A DNA stretch of 37,696 nucleotides, from the NCBI GenBank assembly GCA_031260685.1, contig JAISLB010000056.1, positions 1 to 37,696 on the forward strand, given 5' to 3'. Below the pieces are notes generated by a model. It ran no database searches. It was not told the DNA's origin and saw only the letters and a list, made by a program, of their open reading frames with translations. The translations under genes were made by a program, and so were the position numbers. This document shows, one piece after another, positions 8,247 through 37,496 of this stretch. This DNA comes from Oscillospiraceae bacterium. GTDB lineage: Bacteria > Bacillota > Clostridia > Oscillospirales > Oscillospiraceae. The number at the start of each line of letters is the position of its first letter. Position 1 is the first letter of the stretch.

Positions 8247-8330
8247 GTTGTTGTCAGTGGTCAGTGGTCAGTTGTCAGTGGTCAGTGGTTAGTGGTTAGT
8301 GGTTAGTTCATATCTGATAACTGCTATCTA
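8247..8330. repeat. Heptad-repeat element R1 (12 phased 7-mers) between trpF and trpB
   Basis: On + strand: gttgttg tcagtgg tcagtgg tcagttg tcagtgg tcagtgg ttagtgg ttagtgg ttagttc atatctg ataactg ctatcta; uninterrupted 7-bp phase for 84 bp. The trpF stop codon (TAG) is in the terminal unit. Confidence 0.9.
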
Positions 8331-12793: not shown

Positions 12794-12868
12794 CAGATAA
12801 CAAGTATCAGATATCAGATATCAGATAGTTTCGTATCTTCCAACTGTTATTTGATATTTGCTCACTGC
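12794..12868. repeat. Heptad-repeat element R2 inside the T-box antiterminator loop
   Basis: CAGATAA CAAGTAT CAGATAT CAGATAT CAGATAG on the + strand, inverted arm ctgttatttgatatttgctcactgc (RC gcagtgagCAAATATCAAATAACAG). Confidence 0.8.
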
Positions 12869-13104: not shown

Positions 13105-13222
13105 GCAGTGGTCAGTGGTCAGTGGTCAGTGAACAGCAGAGACGAGAGGACGGAGGTTGAGTCCAAACCCCCCGTCTACGCAGCTGACCACTAACCACTG
13201 TTCACTGACCACTGCTAACAGC
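13105..13222. repeat. Heptad-repeat palindromic element R3
   Basis: Left arm GCAGTGG TCAGTGG TCAGTGG TCAGTGA ACAGCAG; core gagacgagaggacggaggttgagtccaaaccccccgtc; right arm CTGACCA CTAACCA CTGTTCA CTGACCA CTGCTAA. Confidence 0.88.
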
Positions 13223-13731: not shown

Positions 13732-14389
13732 GGAATTGGCACATCGGCTGCGTCACTTACCGGAGAATGAGCGCGGGGAGGCTGTGCGCTATTACGATGA
13801 GTATATCTCGGATAAAATCGACGAGTCCGCGGACCGCGCAGACATTGCTCCCGCTGAACTCGGTACCCCCGCGGAGCTTGCGGCACAGATTATCGCGGTA
13901 TGGGCGGAGCAAGCCGAGCCGCAAACTCGGACAGCCGAAAACAGATATACCCGCGATAACACCGAGCGGACGCAAAGTACAACAGCTTACTACGAAGCAA
14001 GCGGCGAACAGCGCAAAGATTCCGGCAAACGCTCCGGGTTTAGGACTTTTTGGATTGTTGTTCTCGCGGTCTTTGCTTCTCCGATTGCGCTTCCGATTGG
14101 TATCGCGCTTATTGCCGTTGCGATTGCGCTTTTTGTCTCGCTTATAGCGGTTGTAATCTCGGTAGCGGCGGGGGGCGTAGCGGCTATAATCGGCGGAATA
14201 GTGACCTTAATCGCGGGATTCGCGCTTATCGGCACCAGTTTTGCCACAACGATATATCTTATCGGTATGAGCTTAGCGGCGGTCGGATTGGGGCTGATAC
14301 TCGTAAAGTGCGTTACGCTCATCGCTAAGCACGGGGTCGGAGGACTCATCAGTATGCTGACAAACGCCATTAGGAGGTACAAGAAATGA
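13709..14389 (+). CDS. DUF1700-like (HAAS domain) membrane protein
   Basis: MSKSQFLEELAHRLRHLPENERGEAVRYYDEYISDKIDES followed by TM helices; overlaps the PadR gene; typical PadR-DUF1700-DUF4097 order. Confidence 0.82.
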   Translation: MSKSQFLEELAHRLRHLPENERGEAVRYYDEYISDKIDESADRADIAPAELGTPAELAAQIIAVWAEQAEPQTRTAENRYTRDNTERTQSTTAYYEASGEQRKDSGKRSGFRTFWIVVLAVFASPIALPIGIALIAVAIALFVSLIAVVISVAAGGVAAIIGGIVTLIAGFALIGTSFATTIYLIGMSLAAVGLGLILVKCVTLIAKHGVGGLISMLTNAIRRYKK

Positions 14390-15306
14390 AAAACAACAGA
14401 ATTTGGCTTATTGCCTTAGGACTAATCCTCGTCGGCGGAATACTCGGCGTCGTAGGTTACGCCAGCGGAGCTTCAACGGGAGTTCGCTGGGATAGAGGCG
14501 GAATCCGCGCGATAGGCGGCAGGAACGATTTGCTCGAAATGTCCGATACTTATGATACTGTTTCGAGCATTACAATAGACCACGACGTGGGAAACGTTAC
14601 GCTCGAACCCTCGTATGACGGGAGCTTCGGATATAGTCTGCAATACAACGATGATATTGAGCCAATTGTTGACTACTCTGACGGAAAACTGAGGATAGTT
14701 ACGAAAGCGCCTAATTATAACGGCTGGGGCTCTTTCGGCTTTAACATCGGACCTTTCAGCGGGGAATACGAAAATAACCTTACCGTCTACTATCCGGAGG
14801 GCGCGGAGTTTTACTTTGGCGATATACAGTGCGCTTTGGGACAAATCTCTATCGACGGAGCGGACTTCGAACGTTTGACCGCGGAAGCCGATATGGGGCA
14901 AATCACCGTCAAGAACGTAAACTCCGGCAAAACTGTTGTTATCGCGCATATGGGTAAGGTTGAACTATACGGAGTTACCGCGGGCGCTGCCGATATTACA
15001 GCGAATATGGGCGCTGTGGAGTGCCGCGATGTCAGTCTCTCGGGTAATTCAAGCATTGAGCTTAGTATGGGCGCGCTGAATTACCGCGGGACTGTCAGCG
15101 GTGAGCTTAACGTAGAGGCTAATATGGGAGCCGTCGAACTGCGGCTCGAGGACGGACTCGACAACTACGACTTTGACTTAGACTGCGATATGGGCAGCGT
15201 ATACTTCGGCGGACGCGAAATGGGCGGCGACTACACCTCGCGCAGCAGCGCCGCAAACCTGATAAAAGTAAAATCCAATATGGGAGCGATTAAGGTCAGT
15301 GAATAG
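14386..15306 (+). CDS. DUF4097-like beta-strand repeat membrane-anchored protein
   Basis: 306 aa; N-terminal TM anchor, then repeated MG-hydrophobic units (DMGQITV, HMGKVEL, NMGAVEC, SMGALNY, NMGAVEL, DMGSVYF, NMGAIKV). Confidence 0.82.
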   Translation: MKNNRIWLIALGLILVGGILGVVGYASGASTGVRWDRGGIRAIGGRNDLLEMSDTYDTVSSITIDHDVGNVTLEPSYDGSFGYSLQYNDDIEPIVDYSDGKLRIVTKAPNYNGWGSFGFNIGPFSGEYENNLTVYYPEGAEFYFGDIQCALGQISIDGADFERLTAEADMGQITVKNVNSGKTVVIAHMGKVELYGVTAGAADITANMGAVECRDVSLSGNSSIELSMGALNYRGTVSGELNVEANMGAVELRLEDGLDNYDFDLDCDMGSVYFGGREMGGDYTSRSSAANLIKVKSNMGAIKVSE

Positions 15307-15489
15307 TGAATAGTGAATAGTGAATAGTGAATAGTGAATAGTGAATAGTGAATAGTGAATAGTGAACAGTGAACAGTGAACAGTGAACAGTGGTCAGATA
15401 ACAGAGACGGGGGTTAGGACGTAGCCTCCGTTACTGTTCACTGTTCACTGACCACTGACCACTGACCACTGAACCACTGACCACTACAA
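15298..15489. repeat. Heptad-repeat palindromic element R4
   Basis: (AGTGAAT)x9 (AGTGAAC)x4 AGTGGTC AGATAAC, core agagacgggggttaggacgtagcctccgtt, then (ACTGTTC)x2 (ACTGACC)x3 ACTGAACC ACTGACC. The stop codon of the upstream CDS lies in the first unit. Confidence 0.95.
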
Positions 15490-17891: not shown

Positions 17892-17983
17892 CAGCTGACA
17901 GACTGCGGAGACCGTCTGTGCGGTTGCAGCCGTAACAATTGTCATACTTAACAGCTATAATATGTAACAGAGAGGGAACGAAT

Positions 17984-18787: not shown

Positions 18788-18919
18788 AGTGAATAGTGAA
18801 TAGTGAATAGTGAATAGTGAACAGTGAACAGTGAACAGTGAACAGTGAACAGTGAATAGTGAGAACGCCGCGAAACTTCGGGCTTATTATTCACTATTCA
18901 CTATTCATTATTCATTAAG
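18788..18919. repeat. Heptad-repeat palindromic element R5
   Basis: (AGTGAAT)x4 (AGTGAAC)x5 AGTGAAT AGTGAGA, core acgccgcgaaacttcgggc, right arm TTATTATTC ACTATTC ACTATTC ATTATTC ATTAAG. Confidence 0.93.
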
Positions 18920-18936: not shown

Positions 18937-20196
18937 ATGGCGAAACTTCTATACCACAAGACCGGGCGGCTCCTCTTTACTAAGGAAATGAAGCGGGAGT
19001 ATACTTTGCTGCTTCCTAATATGCTTCCGTTCCACGGACGTTTGATGCAGCGCTGCTTTGAGCTTCACGGTTATAAGTGTATAACGCTTGAAACTAATCA
19101 CCGGGGGATTGCCGAGCTTGGGTTGAAATACGTCCATAACGATACCTGTTACCCGGCGCTGCTGGTTATCGGGCAGTTTATTGACGCGCTAAACAGCGGC
19201 TTGTACGATGTTAATAAAACCGCGCTGATGATTACGCAGACGGGCGGCGGCTGCCGTGCGAGTAACTACATACATCTCCTGCGGAGAGCGCTGAAGCGTG
19301 CGGGTTTCCCGCAGATTCCCGTAGTTTCGCTGAATCTATCGGGACTTGAAAGTAACCCCGGTTTCGGACTGACTTTGCCGCTTATCCGCCAGCTTATCTG
19401 CGCTATAATGTACGGCGATGTACTTATGATGCTCGGTAACAAGTGCCGCCCCTACGAGCTTACTCCCGGAGCTGCGGACGCTTTACTCGCGAAATGGGAG
19501 GAGCGTTTGGTCGAAGAATTCAAAACCTCCGGCAAGCTCAATTTCAAGACTATGGCGCAAAATTTCCGCGCTGCCGCTAAGGACTTTGCCGCGCTTCCGC
19601 GCTCTAACGCGAAAAAAGTCAAGGTCGGCGTAGTAGGCGAAATTTACGTCAAATTTTCGCCGCTCGGTAACAATAACCTCGAAGATTTTCTCCGCAGCAC
19701 GGGCGCGGAGGTCGTAGTACCGGGGCTTGCGGACTTTTTGATATTCAAAATCGACAACCGCGTGGTGGACACCGGGCTGTACGGCGGGAATCCGTTCAAA
19801 CCGTTGGTCGCGGGTTTTCTCAAAAACTACTTCGTAAAGTGTCAGCGCGCTATGCTCTCGGCGGTTAGAGAAGCGGGGTTCGAAGCTCCCGCGGAGTTTG
19901 CGGAGATTAAAGAACTCGCGATGAAATATCTCGGCGAGGGAAACAAAATGGGCGAGGGCTGGCTTCTGACCGGAGAAATGCTCGAACTTATCCACAGCGG
20001 TGTTAACAATATCGTCTGCGCCCAGCCTTTCGGCTGTCTCCCAAATCACGTCGTCGGAAAAGGTATGATTCGCGCCCTTAAAACTGACTATCCGCAATCA
20101 AACATAGTAAGCGTAGACTACGACCCGGGAGCGACAAAAATTAACCAAGAAAACCGAATACGCCTGATGATGTCTAATACAGTGAATAGTGAATAG
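18937..20196 (+). CDS. 2-hydroxyacyl-CoA dehydratase activator-related protein (COG3581/DUF2229-like region), standalone
   Basis: Cys motifs NDTCYPALL, QTGGGCRASNY, GNKCRPYE and C-term VSVDYDPGATKINQENRI as in large acyl-CoA dehydratase activase-related proteins; lacks the BadF/BadG ATPase domains. Start re-assigned to MAKLLYH. Confidence 0.78.
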   Translation: MAKLLYHKTGRLLFTKEMKREYTLLLPNMLPFHGRLMQRCFELHGYKCITLETNHRGIAELGLKYVHNDTCYPALLVIGQFIDALNSGLYDVNKTALMITQTGGGCRASNYIHLLRRALKRAGFPQIPVVSLNLSGLESNPGFGLTLPLIRQLICAIMYGDVLMMLGNKCRPYELTPGAADALLAKWEERLVEEFKTSGKLNFKTMAQNFRAAAKDFAALPRSNAKKVKVGVVGEIYVKFSPLGNNNLEDFLRSTGAEVVVPGLADFLIFKIDNRVVDTGLYGGNPFKPLVAGFLKNYFVKCQRAMLSAVREAGFEAPAEFAEIKELAMKYLGEGNKMGEGWLLTGEMLELIHSGVNNIVCAQPFGCLPNHVVGKGMIRALKTDYPQSNIVSVDYDPGATKINQENRIRLMMSNTVNSE

Positions 20197-20298
20197 TGAA
20201 TAGTGAACAGTGACGGGGGTTTAGACGCTTTTCGACGTCTAAACCCCCGTTTCTCGTCCCGCGCCGTGCGCGAGACTGTTCACTGTTCACTGTTAACT
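20179..20298. repeat. Heptad-repeat palindromic element R6 between convergent genes
   Basis: (AGTGAAT)x3 AGTGAAC, core with perfect hairpin ACGGGGGTTTAGACG-cttttcga-CGTCTAAACCCCCGT, right arm (ACTGTTC)x2 ACTGTTA. Confidence 0.93.
20212..20252. terminator. Candidate bidirectional terminator hairpin in the core of R6
   Basis: 15-bp perfect stem ACGGGGGTTTAGACG / CGTCTAAACCCCCGT between convergent genes; U-tract weak. Confidence 0.55.
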
Positions 20299-21311
20299 GG
20301 TAAAGCCGCGTATGCGTTTAGATCCCACGTTGCCGTGTTGCCCGCTTGGAACTCGTAGTATGCTTGGCAGCCTATCATCGCGGCGTTATCGGCGCAGAGA
20401 GATAGCGGCGGCATAACAAGGCGCAGTCCGCGGGTTTCGCAGCCCTCCTGTAAGCGTGAGCGGATTGTCGAGTTTGCGGCTACTCCGCCCGCTACCGCGA
20501 TTGTCCCGTAACCGAAGCGTTCGGCGGCGGTAAAAAGCCGCGGGAGCAGCGCGTCGCTGATAGCGTTCGTAAGAGCCTGAGCAAGCGCGGCTTTGTCGTA
20601 GTCCTCGCCCTTTTGCTCAAAGTTGTGAACGAGGTTGACTACGGTGGTTTTGACCCCGGAGAACGAAAAATCGAACTCTTTGCCGTCAACGTTGGCAATG
20701 GGAAGTTTGAACTCGGCAAGACGCTCCGGCGAAATTGTCCCTCCGGAGCTTGCGAGTTTGTCAATCGCGGGACCTCCCGGATATCCGAGCCCCATAATCC
20801 TCGCGGCTTTGTCGAAACATTCTCCGGCTGCGTCGTCGCGTGTTGTGCCGATAATCTCAAACTCCGTATAGCTCTTGACCGCGGTAATGAGCGAGTGACC
20901 TCCGGACACAACAAGACAGAGGAACGGCGGCTCAAGCTCCGGTTCCGCGATATAGTTTGCGGCAATATGACCGCGAATGTGGTGAACGGGAATAAGCGGA
21001 AGCTTCAAGCCGAAAGCCAGCGCTTTCGCGAAGTTTACCCCGACGAGCAGCGCGCCTATAAGCCCCGGAGCGTTGGTAACGGCTATCGCGTCCAAATCGT
21101 GCTTTGTAAGCCCCGATTTTTTGAGCGCACTGACCGTGAGTTCACGTATAACCTCGATGTGTTTGCGTGAGGCAATCTCCGGAACTACTCCGCCGTATTT
21201 CGCGTGGAAGCCGACCTGCGAAAAAATTTCGTCGCAAAGCACCTCTCGGCCGCAGCGAGTTATCGCGGCAGCCGTTTCGTCACAGCTTGATTCGATTGAA
21301 AGAATATTCAT
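20280..21311 (-). CDS. tsaD: tRNA N6-adenosine threonylcarbamoyltransferase
   Basis: MNILSIESSCDETAAAI, PLIPVHHIRGHIAANY, LCLVVSGGHSLI, VAGGVAANSTIRSRL, PPLSLCADNAAMIG. Confidence 0.97.
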   Translation of the reverse strand: MNILSIESSCDETAAAITRCGREVLCDEIFSQVGFHAKYGGVVPEIASRKHIEVIRELTVSALKKSGLTKHDLDAIAVTNAPGLIGALLVGVNFAKALAFGLKLPLIPVHHIRGHIAANYIAEPELEPPFLCLVVSGGHSLITAVKSYTEFEIIGTTRDDAAGECFDKAARIMGLGYPGGPAIDKLASSGGTISPERLAEFKLPIANVDGKEFDFSFSGVKTTVVNLVHNFEQKGEDYDKAALAQALTNAISDALLPRLFTAAERFGYGTIAVAGGVAANSTIRSRLQEGCETRGLRLVMPPLSLCADNAAMIGCQAYYEFQAGNTATWDLNAYAALPVNSEQ

Positions 21312-24795: not shown

Positions 24796-24880
24796 GCAAT
24801 GAATAGTGAATAGTGAATAATGAATAACGAGAACGCACGAAACCTATTATTCACTATTCATTATTACCTATTCATTGCAG
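24796..24880. repeat. Heptad-repeat palindromic element R7
   Basis: GCAATGAATAGTGAATAGTGAATAATGAATAACGAG ... CCTATTATTCACTATTCATTATTACCTATTCATTGC; ends form an inverted repeat GCAATGAATAG / CTATTCATTGC. Confidence 0.9.
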
Positions 24881-28880: not shown

Positions 28881-29702
28881 ATGTTACAAATCGGCATAGA
28901 CGTCGGAGGTTCCACGACAAAACTTGTCGGGCAACGTCCTGACGGTTCAATTTTTGGTATGACGCAGGTTCGCGCGGCGGATCAGGTGACTTCGCTCTAC
29001 GGGGCAATCGGAACGTTTTGCCGGAGTGAGAACGTACAGCTGTCGGATATTGCGGAGATTGCGATAACCGGCGTCGGAGCGCAGCTGTTTGAGGATTCGG
29101 TCTACGGAATACCGCTCCGGCACATTGACGAATTCAAGGCGATTGGGCGCGGGGGACTGCTGCTCTCCGGTCTTGACGCCGCGATTGTAGTTTCCTGCGG
29201 TACGGGAACAGCTTTTGTACGCGCCTCCGGAGATAAGACGGCGCGAATCGGCGGAATCGGAATCGGCGGCGGAACGCTTATGGGCTTGTCGCATCTGCTC
29301 CTCCGCGAGGACGATATACACCGCGTTTCGGATTTGGCTTCGCGCGGAAACGGCGGTAACGTCGATTTACTAATGAGCGCGATAAGCCGCGAAGCAATCC
29401 CCGGGCTTCCCGACAGCGCGACCGCGAGTAACTTCGGCGCTGTCAATCCGACGACAAGCCGCGAGGATTTGGCGCTCGGGATAACGAATCTCGTTACTCA
29501 CAGCGTTGGTATGCTTGCCGTATTCGCAACGCTGAATGACCCCGACGGTATACGCGATATAGTTCTGACAGGCAGCGTAGCGGAGCTTCCGCAATGTGCC
29601 GCGGTAATGACGGCGTTGACGGCTATGACCGGTGTGCGCTTCCGCATAACGGAAAATGCTCCCTACGCCACGGCAATCGGAGCGTTGGCAGTGGTTGGTT
29701 AG
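28881..29702 (+). CDS. coaW: Type II pantothenate kinase
   Basis: MLQIGIDVGGSTTKLVG, AIVVSCGTGTAFV, RIGGIGIGGGTLMGLSHLLL. Confidence 0.88.
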   Translation: MLQIGIDVGGSTTKLVGQRPDGSIFGMTQVRAADQVTSLYGAIGTFCRSENVQLSDIAEIAITGVGAQLFEDSVYGIPLRHIDEFKAIGRGGLLLSGLDAAIVVSCGTGTAFVRASGDKTARIGGIGIGGGTLMGLSHLLLREDDIHRVSDLASRGNGGNVDLLMSAISREAIPGLPDSATASNFGAVNPTTSREDLALGITNLVTHSVGMLAVFATLNDPDGIRDIVLTGSVAELPQCAAVMTALTAMTGVRFRITENAPYATAIGALAVVG

Positions 29703-29842
29703 CAGTGGTCAGTGGTCAGTGGTCAGTGGTCAGTGGTCAGTGGTCAGTGAGCAGTGGTTAGTGGTCAGTGAGTAGTTGGGGAATTCGCGCAATTCCCGTT
29801 CCGCATCTTTCGTCCTACTGACCACTGAGCACTGATCACTGC
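29688..29842. repeat. Heptad-repeat palindromic element R8
   Basis: GCAGTGG TTGGTTA GCAGTGG then TCAGTGG x6 and variants; core ttggggaattcgcgcaattcccg; right arm ctactgaccactgagcactgatcactgc. Confidence 0.92.
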
Positions 29843-33330: not shown

Positions 33331-34005
33331 TTGTTCGAATCAATACTGCACGGGCTAAGACAAATAGCCGGGTGGATTATCCCGCTTGCGCAAGCCGCGG
33401 AAGTCACACTCGCGCTCTCGGTTATCTCCGTCGTTATCGGCATAATCGGCGGCGTATTCATAGCGCTCGGGCGCATTTCGCGCGGCAAAATTCTCAAGCG
33501 GATTTGCGGCGCGTACATCTTTGTCTTCCGCGGGACGCCGCTTTTGATGCAGCTGTTTTTCCTGTGGACTGCATTGCCGCTTGCTATACCCGCGCTTACT
33601 ATGCAGAATCGCTTTCTCGCGGCTGTGATAGCGTTCTCGCTGAATTCCGCGGCTTATCAGGCGGAGATTATCCGCGCGGCTATTCAGTCTATCGACCCCG
33701 GGCAAATGGAAGCCGCTAAGTCGCTGGGGCTGACTTACAGCCAAGCTATGCGGCTGATAATTTTCCCGCAATCTATCAAGCGGCTCGTACCGCCGATTGG
33801 CAACGAATTCATTATGGTGCTTAAAGATACTTCGCTTGTGCAGATGATTTCGCTTGTCGATTTGATGAAAAAGACGAACCAAATCCAGTCCTCGGCGGCG
33901 ACTGCGTTAGTCTATCTGCCGTCCGCCGTAATGTACCTGATTTTCACGGGAGTGTTCACGTGGCTATTCAACAGACTGGAAAAACACCACGCGAGATATG
34001 AGTGA
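33331..34005 (+). CDS. Polar amino-acid ABC transporter permease (HisM/GlnP-like)
   Basis: TTG start; YIFVFRGTPLLMQLFFLW, AAYQAEIIRAAIQSIDPGQMEAAKSLGLTYSQAMRLIIFPQSIKRLVPPIGNEFIMVLKDTSLV. Confidence 0.95.
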   Translation: MFESILHGLRQIAGWIIPLAQAAEVTLALSVISVVIGIIGGVFIALGRISRGKILKRICGAYIFVFRGTPLLMQLFFLWTALPLAIPALTMQNRFLAAVIAFSLNSAAYQAEIIRAAIQSIDPGQMEAAKSLGLTYSQAMRLIIFPQSIKRLVPPIGNEFIMVLKDTSLVQMISLVDLMKKTNQIQSSAATALVYLPSAVMYLIFTGVFTWLFNRLEKHHARYE

Positions 34006-34114
34006 ATAAGTAATAGTGAATAGTGAATAATGGGCGAACTACAGACTTTGCGTATTTTCTTGCTGTAGTGGGACCAATCAGTTACCACTATTCACTATTC
34101 ATTATTTACTATTA
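34002..34114. repeat. Heptad-repeat palindromic element R9
   Basis: GTGAATA AGTAATA GTGAATA GTGAATA ATGGGCG; core with TACAG/CTGTA; right arm CACTATTCACTATTCATTATTTACTATTAG. The permease stop TGA is in the first unit. Confidence 0.88.
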
Positions 34115-37383: not shown

Positions 37384-37496
37384 CGCCGTTCAGCCGGATT
37401 GCCGCGAAAGTCCGCGCCGTAGAGGGTTTATAGCCGCAGCGATTGTCAAACGTAACAGCTATAATAAGGGAAATCTAAGATAATGAGGAACACTTA

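Follow-up and report, generated by a model that had tools for sequence, protein, structure and literature searches.

The window, the whole 37,696-nt stretch of Oscillospiraceae DNA analysed here, contains two convergent genes whose intervening gap is wholly filled by a palindromic repeat, R6, which overlaps them by 16 and 19 nt. The plus-strand gene (18937–20196; hereafter the plus gene) has a weak match to DUF2229, a CoA enzyme activase domain, and no NCBIfam name, and its minus-strand partner (20280–21311) is tsaD (TIGR03723, 400.9 bits). R6 (20180–20299) is an inverted, 120-nt composite whose arms are inward-pointing tandem runs of 7-nt repeats (AGTGAAY, AGTTAAC), the left arm (20181–20212, plus strand) consisting of three AGTGAAT units, one AGTGAAC and a further AGTG, and the right arm (20278–20298) of AGTTAAC, AGTGAAC and AGTGAAC on the minus strand. 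Between the arms lies a core hairpin (20213–20250) with stems at 20213–20227 (ACGGGGGTTTAGACG) and 20236–20250 (CGTCTAAACCCCCGT), 15 perfect base pairs closed by an 8-nt loop, the sole perfect stem of at least 12 bp with a loop under 12 nt in the whole window. A second, small GC hairpin (20260–20272; CGCGC CGT GCGCG) sits within the motif CGCGCACGGCGCGGG, which is also present in other elements of this genome and is common in the sister species (7 copies here, 63 there). Folding of the two R6 strands as RNA gave z values of −9.3 and −9.4, with none of 200 shuffled sequences equally stable. An Rfam scan of the window returned no match. Within the genome R6 has 78 BLAST matches, and AGTGAAYAGTGAAYAGTGA occurs at 107 exact sites compared to 0 for the reversed pattern.

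Both genes terminate inside the arms. The plus gene ends ACA GTG AAT AGT GAA TAG (T V N S E stop; tail codons 20182–20196, stop 20194–20196), and tsaD ends CCA GTT AAC AGT GAA CAG TGA (P V N S E Q stop; tail codons 20280–20297 on the minus strand, stop 20280–20282). The original prediction had described the perfect 15-bp core and the two gene ends correctly; of its statement that the arms are inverted copies, the inversion stands, but the copies are not exact.

To trace the origin of the tails, we compared homologues. None of about 105 other TsaD genes from relatives ends in VNSE, a set in which some loci are one contig present in two collections, and neither does any of 24 homologues of the plus gene. 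The closest TsaD, from the sister species (85% identical; found at loci L031 and L112, apparently one contig, JAISJH010000034.1), has the C-terminus DLNAYATMALDK directly before its stop. The plus-gene product ends MMSNTVNSE here and MMSNS in the sister genome, and the tails of other homologues are varied. On this comparison both protein tails derive from R6, because no other TsaD or plus-gene homologue ends in this way; the proposal that the two proteins acquired a shared tail from one element is thus upheld, and VNSE was not encountered in TsaD of species that lack the repeat. Two unrelated proteins therefore share a tail through a single DNA element. Solved TsaD homologues can be aligned only up to about residue 330 to 339 of 343, short of most of the tail. 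The tails would be tolerated as both C-termini are unconserved, and they appear to have no function.

The plus gene and tsaD are adjacent in this genome only, among relatives where both were found, although the fragmentation of many of these assemblies could have concealed such a pair elsewhere. In the sister, a 4-alpha-glucanotransferase gene lies opposite the plus gene in convergent orientation. Such a pattern could arise if the junction at R6 were a misassembly through the repeat. However, the longest R6 word repeated elsewhere in 819 kb is 34 nt, so that ordinary assembly word sizes span the element, making an artificial junction highly improbable. Even then, only the shared palindrome would be lost, since both tails run on uninterrupted from their own genes and would remain. 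We also considered the arrays as rearrangement hot spots and rejected the idea, as gene order was interrupted in 9 of 26 array-bearing gaps versus 35 of 73 gaps free of arrays, which is no enrichment.

Recurrence and placement of the elements

We surveyed 819 kb of this genome (GC 0.52, about 39% of the total) and 572 kb of the sister (about 25%), a sample partly picked for contigs with arrays, with genes called by a simple script, without Prodigal, which makes the counts approximate. Tandem runs are dominated by a period of 7 (152 runs, versus at most 8 for any other period except the multiple 14), all but 2 of 124 arrays are intergenic, and arms form inward pairs in 70 and outward pairs in 2 of 111 cases. 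A stop codon lies 4 nt or more within an arm for 27 of the 705 genes called here and 23 of the 464 called in the sister, meaning that about 4% of the genes read receive their stop and final residues from a selfish or neutral repeat family. The overlap between AGTGAAY arms and gene ends measures 5 to 19 nt. Within the window there are eight more inward-paired heptamer elements (8256–8329, 12795–12866, 13107–13213, 15298–15470, 18788–18916, 24798–24876, 29690–29840 and 34001–34103), and three further genes end in such arms: 14386–15306 with KVSE, 28881–29702 with AVVG and 33331–34005 with RYE before the stop.

The fit between elements and genes is close. All 14 elements in convergent gaps (8 here and 6 in the sister) lie within −23 to +23 nt of both stops, and R6 is the only one of them with both stops well inside its arms, and hence with two tails. 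In co-directional gaps the median distances are 1 nt to the stop and 20 nt to the following start (4 and 31 nt in the sister), and in divergent gaps elements keep at least 19 nt away from starts. The simplest reading suggested by these distances is that the element has taken all gap sequence that its neighbours do not need. Targeting of stop codons was considered separately and rejected: 78% of co-directional arms lie within 10 nt of a stop, where uniform placement in the available space predicts 68%, and in the sister the values are 68% and 52%, which gives no clear sign of targeting once the shortage of space is allowed for.

A hairpin between two 3' ends raises the question of termination, and the original prediction had the core terminating both transcripts. 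In that form the proposal is not supported, since a terminator scan of R6 returned nothing on either strand and a looser script accepted the plus strand only, where the stem is followed by TTTCTC. On the tsaD strand no U-tract, the stretch that directly follows the GC-rich stem of an intrinsic terminator, comes after the stem. One could nevertheless suppose that R6 is kept as a bidirectional terminator of the convergent pair, with the tails as a side effect, given the position of the perfect 15-bp hairpin, a folding stability of both strands far beyond that of shuffles and the plus-strand site just mentioned. However, among gaps of at least 60 bp, elements occupy 10 of 31 between convergent genes, 15 of 66 between divergent genes and 52 of 263 between co-directional genes, with no clear preference for convergent pairs. 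Nor are terminator-like sites more frequent in 3' flanks that hold an element (12 of 88, versus 29 of 175 without one; in the sister, 13 of 101 versus 33 of 134). Because the evidence for it is weak and one-sided, we regard a selected bidirectional terminator as unlikely.

Stop codons in a seven-nucleotide period

The identity of the tails follows from the arrays themselves. With a unit length of 7 nt, AGTGAAC and AGTGAAT pass through every reading frame in three consecutive copies, and since 7 is coprime to 3, an AGTGAAY array read from outside has TGA or TAG in each frame within 19 nt. The three entry phases yield CAG TGA (Q-stop), AGT GAA TAG or AGT GAA CAG TGA (SE-stop or SEQ-stop), and GTG AAT AGT GAA TAG or its C variant (VNSE-stop or VNSEQ-stop). 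The opposite strand of the array is open, without stops; because the arms face inward, genes always meet the stop-bearing strand. A gene whose native stop was lost to, or replaced by, such an array would thus end in Q, SE(Q) or VNSE(Q).

Both genes flanking R6 enter the array in the phase that gives the longest tail. The chance that the second gene matches the phase of the first is about 1 in 3, and the shared tail is explained by the period-7 stop geometry, with nothing special further needed. Counted by eye, tails in AGTGAAY arms comprise about 14 Q-stop, 5 SE(Q)-stop or VSE-stop and 3 VNSE(Q)-like endings, which makes VNSE the least frequent phase, with about 3 of 22 (chi-square test for equal phases, p 0.009). 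The variants AGTGGTC and AAATATC have no stops in the inward direction, indicating that three-frame stops are a property of some units and not of the whole repeat family.

Identical residues on two proteins could also point to a function of the tail, such as a C-terminal signal under selection in both, and a few other proteins end in SEQ, VSE or VNS. Yet the type of tail is set by the entry phase, most tails are of the shorter kinds, no such tail is present in orthologues that lack the element, and the plus-gene protein and TsaD are unrelated, which together make selection on the tail extremely improbable. The shared VNSE tails are a real but probably neutral by-product of the repeat family, and in such genomes a VNSE or SEQ ending should not be annotated as a conserved motif.

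Taken as a whole, the best explanation, to which we assign a probability of about 0.82, is that R6 is a copy of this repeat family and that the stops of its arrays supply the tails. The family is one of composite palindromic intergenic repeats in which a hairpin core is flanked by two inward arrays of 7-nt units, and the arrival or expansion of R6 would postdate the species split. The overlap with the genes may have come about through insertion, expansion or deletion of the flanks.

Arms and cores in other genomes

In this genome the dominant units are AGTGAAY and AGTGGTY. Left and right arms of an element are correlated in unit type (rho 0.63, n = 47) and not in length (rho 0.00), with the p-value on the optimistic side because an arm is in some instances counted in more than one of the 47 entries. 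Elements of the sister are built in the same way, with AAATATC as the prevailing unit instead (115 of 174 runs). At one orthologous convergent site (L141:1186–1334 here, L267 in the sister species), both species retain the core TCGCGCACGGCGCGGGA...ACGAGGGYTGCG...CAACCCTCG and roughly the same number of heptamers, and the units of both arms differ, being AGTGAAY here versus AAATATC and AGTTATC in the sister. This is the single clean case; elsewhere shared sites differ in their arms and the cores cannot be aligned by eye, and a few shared sites keep AAATATC-type arms in both species. It is conceivable, although we consider it doubtful and distinctly improbable, that an active process such as templated addition or gene conversion rewrites the heptamer arms genome-wide, independently of the core. 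If this were true, one would have to explain how hundreds of heptamer arrays stay uniform inside one species and yet differ from those of its sister.

We counted 80 occurrences of the AGTG-armed inward pattern here, overlapping matches included, and it is present with other cores in 6 other genomes of 292 searched in the class. At the level of the phylum, CAGTNNN heptamer arrays with differing variable letters were detected in 22 of 250 genomes, a search whose reversed control was not clean. A genome from another family of the class (G148, contigs C8, C13, C31, C34 and C40) carries several AGTG-armed inward elements with an unrelated core, TTCCAATGGTC...AGGAACATG; therefore the arm design recurs with different cores. 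Among viral contigs, AGTGAAY arrays were found in 27 stretches, several of them inward-paired and with other cores, and the arm string of the sister was not found. Four viral contigs (L320, L322, L326, L327) contain inward-paired heptamer palindromes of AGTGAAC and AGTGATC.

Two side observations concern the sisters. Orthologous genes of the two sister species (L301:3086–5167 and L146:4571–6607) end in arms of opposite direction, giving KAVNS-stop versus QAAIDI-stop. Gaps of the sister genome G002 (e.g. L112, L267) hold several repeat types stacked in one gap, including CGTCATTGCGAAGC...GCAATCCAG...GCAATGACG and the CGCGCACGGCGCGGG motif, and GCAATCCAG occurs 238 times in 572 kb of the sister versus 5 times in 819 kb here.

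Relation to known repeats

A literature search for the heptamers as strings returned unrelated subjects only. The closest described system is that of the TAACTGA heptamer repeats of Beggiatoaceae, Cyanobacteria and Bacteroidetes. According to the parts of MacGregor 2015 (PMC4679880) drawn on here, these are intergenic tandem arrays of 7-nt units with forward-strand stops in all three frames, 13 sets of which overlap the 3' end of the upstream ORF; they are direct, with 1 inverted in 170, and lie mostly just upstream of start codons. The present arrays likewise consist of exact 7-nt tandem intergenic units, and the AGTGAAY forward strand, unlike the AGTGGTC and AAATATC units, has stops in every frame and overlaps gene ends by 5 to 19 nt, in line with the maximum of about 18–19 nt for arrays of the TAACTGA type. 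The sequences are also related, as TCAGTTA is a rotation of AGTTATC minus one letter, with CAGTTA in common. In contrast to the TAACTGA arrays, arms are paired inward around a hairpin core and lie next to stop codons, several heptamers are in use (dominant AGTGAAY and AGTGGTY), and the dominant unit differs in the sister. Three-frame-stop heptamer arrays at gene ends are thus already published, and what is new relative to those parts of the report is the paired inward arms, the hairpin core, the stop-to-stop fit and the units differing between sisters.

The family also resembles the REP or BIME sequences, CGTC- or GTAG-tagged single palindromes of 20–40 nt (PMC3733652), in being abundant, short, intergenic, hairpin-forming and expanded in a species-specific manner, and the CGTCATTGCGAAGC...GCAATCCAG repeat of the sister is similar to a CGTC-type REP; however, REPs lack the period-7 arms, and R6 is a 120-nt composite. 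No Y1 (RAYT) transposase (PF01797) was detected in the genome (G000, 91% complete), with 5 control genomes positive. MITEs such as Correia or ERIC are small non-coding intergenic inverted elements that can supply stop codons, and they are recognised by terminal inverted repeats, a target-site duplication and a partner transposase. R6 is similarly small, non-coding, inverted and placed between genes, but arms in its family are tandem arrays of varying copy number. Apart from the heptamer elements, the window contains two 35-nt copies, 86% alike (17928–17962 and 37432–37466), each ending in ACAGCTATAATA shortly before a gene start, which are perhaps a shared promoter or operator.
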